NCBI RefSeq assembly: GCF_024055725.1
Contig: NZ_JAMXMX010000009.1
Span: 124,001 to 188,000 of the forward strand
Direction of reading: 5' to 3'
Origin: Actinoallomurus spadix
GTDB lineage: Bacteria; Actinomycetota; Actinomycetes; Streptosporangiales; Streptosporangiaceae
Length of the DNA stretch: 64,000 nucleotides
Part shown: positions 9,190-11,622 of the stretch, piece after piece
How the letters are laid out: every line of letters starts with the position of its first letter
Position numbering within the stretch: the stretch's first letter is position 1
The notes under the pieces: model-generated
Database searches by the model: none
The model's input: the letters and a program-made list of their open reading frames with translations, nothing else
What the model was told of the DNA's origin: nothing
Translations under genes and position numbers: made by a program

Positions 9190-11622
9190 TCACACGTCTC
9201 CCGGCTTCGGGGTCTTGGCGGCCCGCTTGGCCGGAGCAGCCTTGCCCGCCGGGGCGGCGGCCGCCGCCGGAGCCGCCGTGGGAGCGCCCGCCGGCTCGTC
9301 CGCCGGGGCGTCGACGCGCGGCCCCACGCCGAGCTTCTCCTTGATCTTCTTCTCGATCTCGTCGGCGATGTCGGGGTTCTCCTTGAGGAACCGCCGTGCG
9401 TTCTCCTTGCCCTGGCCGAGCTGGTCGTTGCCGTAGGTGTACCAGGCGCCGGACTTGCGCACGAAGCCGTGCTCGACGCCCATGTCGATCAGGCCGCCCT
9501 CGCGGCTGATCCCGACGCCGTACAGGATGTCGAAGTCGGCCACCTTGAACGGCGGGGCGCAGTTGTGCACCACCACGTCCTCCGCGACGAGGTTATGCAG
9601 TTCCTCCACCTCTACATCGAAGGTGCGGACCTTCTTGGCCGGCAGGACCTCCCGAATCGAGGAGAACCACAGCTGGTCCGCGAGGATCTCGTGGAGGAAG
9701 GTGTCGTCGAGAGCGTCGGCAAGACGCTGCACCCTGTCGCGCCGCAAGCGCTGCTTCCCGAGCACTTGGCGCATTCCGCCCCTCGGGTTCCCGGACATCT
9801 CTCCGAGAAAGCGCGCGGCGAGCGCTGGCGTCACGCCGCGGTTCTCCAGGTGCGCGAGTACAGGCTCGATGACATCTTCGGAGAGATATCCGCGACGCGA
9901 ACCATGGTGCCGCCCCTCGACCGCGCCCAGCTCTCGAACGAGGACCTGGCCACGGGGTCCCCACATCGGGATCGCCTGCGCGAAAGCCTCGGCGTTGTCG
10001 GCTCCACTCACCCGTACCTCCCACGTGGGGAGCTTGCCGCTGATCCGGCGTCCCTTGATCAGGCCGCCTCGTTGCGCACGGGGGTCCCGTTTCCGGACAC
10101 TGCTTCCGATCCCCCAACGCAGCAGGAGCCAGTGGATCTGATGGGCGAGTTGTTCAGACGTGGTGGTGAACCCTATACGGATGCCGCCGGTCTGCTCCCG
10201 TGAAATGTGTCCGTCGGACTCGAAGAGCCCAAAAATCAAGTTACCGACGACGTCCGCCGAGATGCCAGGAGAGAAGAAGAACCCGGGAAGCTTCTTTTCT
10301 GAAGCGAGCTTCCCCCAGACATCCGCCTCACGACAGAGCTCCAGGACTCCGTTCTTTTCTCCTGAACGATGAGAAAAACTGACGGCGATGCCACCATCTT
10401 TCGGCTTCGCCTCGCATCCGAGAGTGGATGCGATTTTCGCAGCATCCTCTTGCAGGGACTCTGCGACGTTGATGAAGGTAATCGGAGTCTTGCCGCCGAC
10501 GTATCCGTCGCCGATGAGATAGCCGAGCAGTCGAGCCTTGTCTGCTGTGATCGGCTCTTCCTGCCCGAATCCCGTAAGTGCCCTGGGACGTGCGACCCGA
10601 ACACCTGGCGCAAGCTCGCCGGCGAGTCTCCATCCCCGCTCGGTCAAGACCTTGTGATCGGGAGTGACCCACAGTTCGGTATTGTCGCCGAGCTTGAGGC
10701 CGATCACTTCTTGCTCCCCCTGGTCGAACCAGGAGGCGACCTCGCGGACTTGCAACTCCCCCTTCTTGTCGACGGCCACCACATGAATGGGCAGCAGCCC
10801 ATCGACCACATCCTCGATACGGTGTGTAACTCCGGTCAAGGGATCAAAGATTCGAGTGCCCTCGGCCAGGCATTTGTTTTTGACGACCTTGACGCGCGTA
10901 CGGTTCCCGACCGCATCCGTGCCGTCCTTCATTGTTTCGATTCTACGAACGTCCAGTCGAATGGATGCGTAGAACTTGAGCGCCTTTCCGCCAGTAGTGG
11001 TCTCTGGACTTCCGAACATCACACCTACCTTTTCCCGCAGCTGATTAATGAAAATCGCTGTGGTCCGGGTCTGGTGAATGGCGCCGGTGAGCTTGCGGAG
11101 GGCCTGGGACATGAGGCGGGCCTGGAGACCGACGTGGCTGTCGCCCATCTCGCCCTCGATCTCGGCGCGGGGCACGAGGGCCGCGACGGAGTCGATGACG
11201 ACGACGTCGATCGCGCCGGAGCGGATCAGCATGTCGGTGATCTCGAGGGCCTGCTCACCCGTGTCGGGCTGGGAGACGAGGAGGGCGTCGATGTCGACAC
11301 CGATCTTCTTGGCGTACTCCGGGTCGAGCGCGTGCTCGGCGTCGACGAACGCGGCGATGCCGCCCGCCTTCTGCGCGCTCGCCACGGCGTGCAGGGCGAG
11401 GGACGTCTTACCGGAGGACTCCGGACCGTAGATCTCGACCACGCGGCCACGCGGGAGACCGCCGATGCCCAGGGCGACGTCGAGGGCGATCGAACCGGTC
11501 GGGATCACCTCGACCGGGGGGCGTCCCTCCTGGCCCAGCCGCATGACGGAACCCTTGCCGAACTGCCGCTCGATCTGCGCGAGCGCCGCCTCGAGGGCCT
11601 TCTCGCGATCGTTTGCTGCCAT
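9190..11622 (-). CDS. recA: Recombinase RecA precursor containing an in-frame intein
   Basis: An 810-codon gene. Residues 1-250 and 688-810 together make a normal 373-aa RecA: Walker [10 protein letters not shown] at 66-74, Walker [11 protein letters not shown] at 140-149, and loop L2 around 195-212. Residues 251-687 are an intein inserted after KVVKNK. RecA drives homologous recombination and LexA cleavage, so splicing is needed to make the active protein. The Ala/Pro/Lys-rich tail after residue 765 is typical for actinobacteria. recX lies 42 bp downstream. Codons 182-250, next to the intein, show far more A/T-ending codons than the rest of the gene (see findings). Confidence 0.96.
9562..10872 (-). 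mobile_element. RecA intein with LAGLIDADG homing endonuclease
   Basis: 437 residues from Cys251 to Asn687 of the precursor, followed by Cys688 as the +1 nucleophile. Splicing blocks are intact: N-terminal [18 protein letters not shown] (block B, TxxH), and a C-terminal block ending VVVHN before Cys. Both dodecapeptides of a LAGLIDADG endonuclease are present: LLGYLIGDG (intein residues 115-123, Asp122) and [11 protein letters not shown] (211-221, Asp220). The insertion point, length and sequence closely resemble the Mycobacterium tuberculosis RecA intein (440 aa) as I recall it, so this is the same allele class. Both splicing and homing appear competent. Base composition of the central part is lower in GC than the host gene. 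Confidence 0.95.

Follow-up and report, generated by a model that had tools for sequence, protein, structure and literature searches.

A mosaic actinomycete recA with a probable 207-bp co-conversion tract upstream of its intein

The recA locus and its intein

The recA gene described here lies in a 64-kb window, by which we mean the whole stretch of DNA that was analysed, and its features are collected in Table 1. Its reading frame matches RecA (2.3e-137) and RecA_C in Pfam and is the only RecA-family match (n=1, at 9190-11622) in the 8.0-Mb actinomycete assembly. Pfam assigns the domains Intein_splicing and LAGLIDADG_3 to the intein, which, with the domain and both endonuclease motifs present, is a predicted carrier of a LAGLIDADG homing endonuclease. 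It has the features of the mycobacterial-type RecA intein of site 250/251, namely insertion after residue 250, Cys1, an HN end and a Cys+1. The nearest solved structures are those of PI-MtuI (PDB 2imz, 5.2e-64, a splicing-domain construct, and others), the mycobacterial RecA intein with which it shares intein family, insertion site and length class and from which it differs in host; over the full length, its identity is 63-64% to seven of ten mycobacterial inteins and 50-59% to the other three. A second recA intein site, 204/205, is empty in the window; other members of the family, as well as a genus that we take to be Mycobacterium, have an intein there. Two further inteins (L358 and L359) are found in the genome outside the window, at about 18.4 kb and 64.9 kb of G000:C71, in host genes that we judged by eye to be those of DnaG primase and PhoH; 83 of 321 and 21 of 360 of their intein codons end in A or T.

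Table 1. Features of the recA locus, in positions of the window
Feature	Position	Strand	Description or basis
recA ORF	9190..11622	-	810 codons, extein and intein in a single frame
Native N-extein, residues 1-181	11080..11622	-	Host-genus sequence
Probable co-conversion tract, residues 182-250, 207 bp	10873..11079	-	A/T-ending codons, identity fall, change point
Left breakpoint zone, codons 178 to 182	11077..11091	-	Codon alignments
Second recA intein site 204/205, empty, within the tract	11010..11011	-	
RecA intein, 437 aa, codons 251-687	9562..10872	-	Begins CLAEGT, ends VVHN
Homing endonuclease motif 1, LLGYLIGDG	10504..10530	-	Motif search and codon table
Homing endonuclease motif 2, GLFESDG	10210..10230	-	Motif search and codon table
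Codon 251, TGC, Cys+1, splicing nucleophile	9559..9561	-	Codon comparison
Native C-extein	9190..9558	-	Identity to L003 and codon usage

A foreign-looking tract adjoining the insertion site

Codons ending in A or T amount to 13/181 in residues 1-181, 26/69 in residues 182-250, 118/437 in the intein and 6/123 in the C-extein counted from residue 251. The original prediction had rested on this anomaly, and our recount reproduced its 26 of 69 codons exactly, together with the prevalence of G/C endings that it had described before and after the block. An interval scan placed the densest A/T-ending block of the extein at codons 188-230 (21/43), with a log-likelihood ratio of 21.5, compared to at most 14.4 when the codons were shuffled 100 times. 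We also counted such codons in 45 gene-like ORFs of the 64-kb window, where 13,561 overlapping stretches of 69 codons had at most 23 and none reached 26; these ORFs were chosen by codon composition and are unverified as genes, with recA itself lying below the composition filter. Along the insert the share of A/T-ending codons declines from 38% in the tract to 33% in the first 200 intein codons and 22% in the remaining intein.

Seven further genomes of the genus were searched, and each carries an uninterrupted recA. A similarly low GC3 at residues 182-250 of intein-free close relatives, which was looked for as a sign against an import, is absent from these genes (L002-L008), in which 4, 4, 3, 1, 3, 2 and 10 of 69 codons end in A or T; the mildest contrast is given by L008 (10/69), which has no intein and Met251. 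Identity to the nearest relative, L003, is 97% over residues 2-181 and follows a profile of 98.6% (residues 61-181), 81.6% (182-250) and 97.3% (252-300), in support of the proposal that some 200 bp of donor recA were carried in with the intein. From residues 61-150 to 182-250 identity drops by 0.169. In 124 control pairs of intein-free genes the corresponding drop averages 0.014 and never exceeds 0.094, so that the divergence of the tract lies beyond the natural variation of this region. In a change-point scan on codon differences to L003, from which residue 251 was excluded, the block extended over residues 182-254 (34/72 codons differing inside, 16/238 outside) and none of 2000 shuffles was equally strong; at its last difference, codon 254, the window has a codon that is also seen elsewhere in the genus. 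Scans against each of the six remaining genus members likewise placed the best interval within 182-254, with 0/300 shuffles as strong for four of them, 1/300 for L007 and 9/300 for L006, and no significant block was found in the three pairs of intein-free genus members compared. Codons absent from all seven genus members make up 28/69 of the tract, 2/180 of residues 2-181 and 1/49 of residues 252-300, while each genus member, tested against the other six, has 0-7/69 private codons in 182-250. In a tree of the N-terminal part, the window and the genus form one clade (100/99).

The foreign-looking stretch directly adjoins the insertion site after residue 250. On its left, the abrupt boundary that had been placed near 11079 was found again, with codons 152-181 the same as in L003 and codon 182 as first difference. 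Codon 178 is CTC as in the host, and ATG, ATA or ATC in the three nearest intein-bearing recA genes, which puts the break between codons 178 and 182, provided that the donor resembled these carriers there. On the right, the block stops at the very point where the intein is inserted: codon 250 differs, and then follow the intein, Cys251 and host sequence. Codon 251 is TGC here and ATG (Met) in 7/7 genus members, and since Cys251 is present in all 21 distinct site-250/251 rows (window included) and rare without an intein (2/133 intein-free rows), we take at least codon 251 as imported for splicing. The claim that donor DNA entered on the upstream side only therefore holds for the tract and fails for one downstream codon. 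The gene is thus a mosaic, in which host recA (codons 1-181) is followed by foreign-looking sequence at 182-250, the intein, Cys251 and again host recA.

Search for the donor

Among 297 genomes of the family, full-length relatives of the intein occur in three other genera (73, 69 and 68% identical), and the intein further matches a shortened copy in G415 and an end fragment in G567. The next relatives are found in mycobacteria and other actinobacteria, giving 24 loci in total, three of them the carriers of the same family. It should be noted that the family as defined by the tool includes Nocardiopsis sp. FIRDI 009 (G549 = L074), and that G415 has two recA matches (G415:C250 and G415:C31; L101 and L046), of which one lacks an intein and the other has a shortened one at site 250/251; contamination (7%) is possible in this assembly.

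For the tract, the best DNA identity over the whole length among 150 genomes of the family was 83%, a value reached by two intein carriers, by a genus member without intein and by one further genome; a set of 200 genomes from the order also gave 83% at best. No whole-tract match above 83%, and with it no donor sequence, was found in these two sets. Different best-hit taxa had been expected for tract and flanks, which was borne out only in part: the flanks belong to the host genus, but the tract has no close relative over its whole length in the collections searched, and intein-bearing recA genes of other genera share its top rank with recA of the host genus. Over its first 66 bases the tract is 88% identical to some carriers of a site-204/205 intein (G507, G432), which may point to a donor of another kind than the three carriers.

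In a tree of the tract, the window is placed beside the three intein carriers of other genera (80/61), but a position with the host genus was not rejected (AU p=0.288), whereas holding the carriers together was rejected for the N-terminal part (p=5e-93). This comparison used 36 rows, of which 25 were intein-free rows drawn at random from 64; another tree run, with 62/148 rows, used random draws too. The nearest row to the window by path in the tract tree, L043, is also the nearest by intein. Codons matching one of the three nearest intein-bearing recA genes and no genus member number 17/69 in the tract and 0/180 and 0/49 in the flanks. Triplets drawn from 64 intein-free family rows shared 5.1 such codons on average and at most 12 (3000 draws), whereas shuffling synonymous codons of the carriers gave a mean of 13.6 compared to the 17 seen, with 427/5000 shuffles as high, suggesting that the sharing lies only weakly above chance given the carriers' own codon use. 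A partial Mantel correlation between tract and intein distances (23 rows) was 0.43 and is unspecific, as the C-extein gave 0.35 too. Judged from these comparisons, the donor was likely of the intein-carrier kind.

Mobile elements were searched as candidate donors and rejected. When the tract was compared by tblastn with 50,697 phage records, the highest amino-acid identity among the best 20 of 475 matches was 79.7%; by DNA, all 143 matching phage records stayed below 80%, the best of the 20 listed reaching 75.0%. Relatives are encoded by 174 stretches of viral contigs, of which 80 were kept; these 80 reached at most 75.4% DNA identity to the tract, and no intein was detected in them at either site. 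Relatives of the intein were not found in viral contigs by peptide patterns, and 18 phage records match it, all below 60%. Plasmid records matching the tract (249) were all below 80%, with 77.6% for the top-ranked and 79.6% for the highest among the 20 listed.

Flanks of other recA inteins

We compared 207 distinct recA rows, comprising 133 without intein, 46 with an intein at site 204/205 (site a), 21 with one at site 250/251 (site b) and 7 with both. The flank survey covered the 50 carriers that have an intein-free relative of at least 88% identity, and 24 of the 74 intein-bearing rows, including L087, were dropped. In the segments 182-204, 205-227, 228-250 and 252-274, flanks above the 95% control limit were found in 5, 5, 4 and 3 of 11 site-b carriers and in 7, 5, 6 and 9 of 37 site-a carriers; in the remoter segments 141-160, 161-181 and 275-297, the counts were 1, 2 and 1 of 11 and 3, 3 and 5 of 37, respectively.

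Individual carriers differ in the side and extent of the block. For L045 the change points fall at 179-243 against L112 and 186-266 against L277, so that the upstream-only block there depends on the partner chosen, and L044 has a block on both sides, at 174-274 or 209-272 by partner. Two carriers with a site-204/205 intein, L232 and L244, display a foreign-looking block downstream (200-270 and 204-273), the mirror image of the window, and L319 (G544), compared with L214, shows a sharp block of 25 codons (201-225) beside its site-204/205 intein, in which 13 codons differ, compared to 12/285 elsewhere. Change points were placed at 204-299 for L317 and at 257-266 for L241, and weaker ones were obtained for L082 (195-254, 4/300 shuffles as strong), L080 (5/300) and L091 (8/300). 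The scan was unconvincing for L089 (22/300, residues 3-14) and L312 (48/300), and L235 gave no block (187/300). Taken together, the sequences suggest that flanks of recA inteins are often foreign-looking, on sides that vary, with some carriers having no block.

Origin of the tract

We propose that the tract arose during homing of the intein, when about 207 bp on the upstream side of the insertion site were co-converted, a reading to which we assign a probability of roughly 0.86. An intein-bearing donor recA would have entered the ancestor of this strain after its split from the nearest sampled relative, and the LAGLIDADG endonuclease, of which both motifs are present, would have cleaved the host gene, at that time without an intein, close to codon 250/251. 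The upstream broken end would then have been eroded by some 207 bp and the gap refilled by copying from the donor, while annealing just past the intein would have limited the downstream takeover to roughly a single codon at most, that of the obligatory Cys251. PI-MtuI reportedly cuts on the upstream side of its insertion site, and such a cut would likewise favour upstream loss.

Co-conversion by homing enzymes is already known, and the recA tract would be a clear natural case of it. For the td intron of T4, PMC2988022 describes double-strand-break homing by I-TevI in which flanking donor DNA is copied with a bias to one side, the enzyme staying on the exon II side and leaving exon I open to nucleases. 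That system is a group I intron with another type of enzyme in a phage, whereas here we probably see the natural footprint of a LAGLIDADG intein in a chromosomal recA. The haloarchaeal MCM-d intein, as treated in PMC10643990, offers a parallel to the forced change of the +1 nucleophile, since its invasion co-converts the +1 residue from proline to serine, corresponding to Met to Cys here; it concerns another gene and domain of life, and in that work the flanking residue is followed, whereas a 207-bp upstream tract is resolved here. Homing of the polB intein in Haloferax has been shown to proceed by gene conversion and to depend on flanking homology (PMC3024317).

The same end product would be expected if a larger piece of donor DNA had been imported and later recombination with native recA had restored the downstream and far upstream parts, leaving a one-sided remnant, and the block on both sides in the relative L044 shows that such an arrangement exists. 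This course of events requires an extra event whose end falls no more than about a codon from the intein, however, and the genus-absent codons outside the tract number only 3/229 in residues 2-181 and 252-300 and lie scattered, at codons 33, 108 and 294, so that we regard it as improbable. We give somewhat less credit still to the import of an ordinary recA fragment, independent of the intein and ending at the insertion site by chance; conserved genes do recombine, and no endonuclease would be necessary, but the edge coincides with the insertion point, and no intein-free pair among the 124 shows such a drop.

Changes made in place are very improbable, whether driven by selection or by mutation. 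An intein might require slow or A/T-ending codons upstream, and A/T-ending codons in 182-250 are indeed raised across site-b carriers as a class, as they are in 8 mycobacterial site-b carriers compared to 28 intein-free rows. The signal is absent in the site-a carriers L235 and L242, however, and among site-b carriers it is weak in L082 and L087. The two other inteins of this genome have ordinary flanks, with 1/23 and 2/23 A/T-ending codons for DnaG and 4/23 and 1/23 for PhoH, which argues against a codon requirement of inteins, and at codon 205 TCG was replaced by AGT, a change of three bases. Mutation beside the endonuclease break, by error-prone repair or deamination, would explain that the block adjoins the break site and that changes from G/C to A/T are the commonest (26 of the 38 base differences to L003). 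These differences are nonetheless divided equally into 19 transitions and 19 transversions, and 31 of them fall on third positions. They affect 33 codons, four of which have more than one base changed (among the multi-base switches, besides codon 205, CGG to AGA at 227), and cause three amino-acid changes, leaving 66/69 residues the same. The equal transitions and transversions and the multi-base switches point to a diverged homolog as source and disfavour mutation, and with the protein preserved the import is visible mainly in codon usage. By its composition, the tract has the look of a diverged functional recA, unlike damage.

Implications

If the tract arose by co-conversion, it represents a footprint, resolved to the base, of intein homing from one bacterial lineage to another, obtained without experiment, which gives the direction of the event, its length (about 207 bp upstream and about one codon downstream) and the forced change of a splicing residue. 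In the literature searched, with subscription papers mostly outside its coverage, we found no description of a natural tract next to a recA intein. Since the second recA intein site lies within the tract, mutual erasure of neighbouring inteins becomes testable. Blocks facing each other were seen upstream from 250/251 (the window, and L045 compared with its nearest relative) and downstream from 204/205 (L232 to residue 270, L244 to 273). As a speculative extension, which we consider rather unlikely in full, recA intein homing in actinobacteria might regularly bring about 200 bp of donor recA, with tracts of the two sites facing each other, the two inteins competing for one conversion interval and the donors belonging to an unsampled pool with fewer G/C-ending codons; each homing event would then overwrite the other site, 138 bp away. 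Trees of recA built from intein-bearing genes mix histories.

Cys251 was additionally observed in individual recA genes that carry no intein. L257 (G727) has 21/69 A/T-ending codons in residues 182-250 and is the nearest intein-free row to the site-b carrier L093, inside the tract too (0.91-0.94). An intein-free gene of this kind is a point against the co-conversion reading, but we read it as a probable case of intein loss in which the tract was left behind. In L123 (G406), also intein-free and with Cys251, residues 182-250 nevertheless have ordinary codons (3/69).
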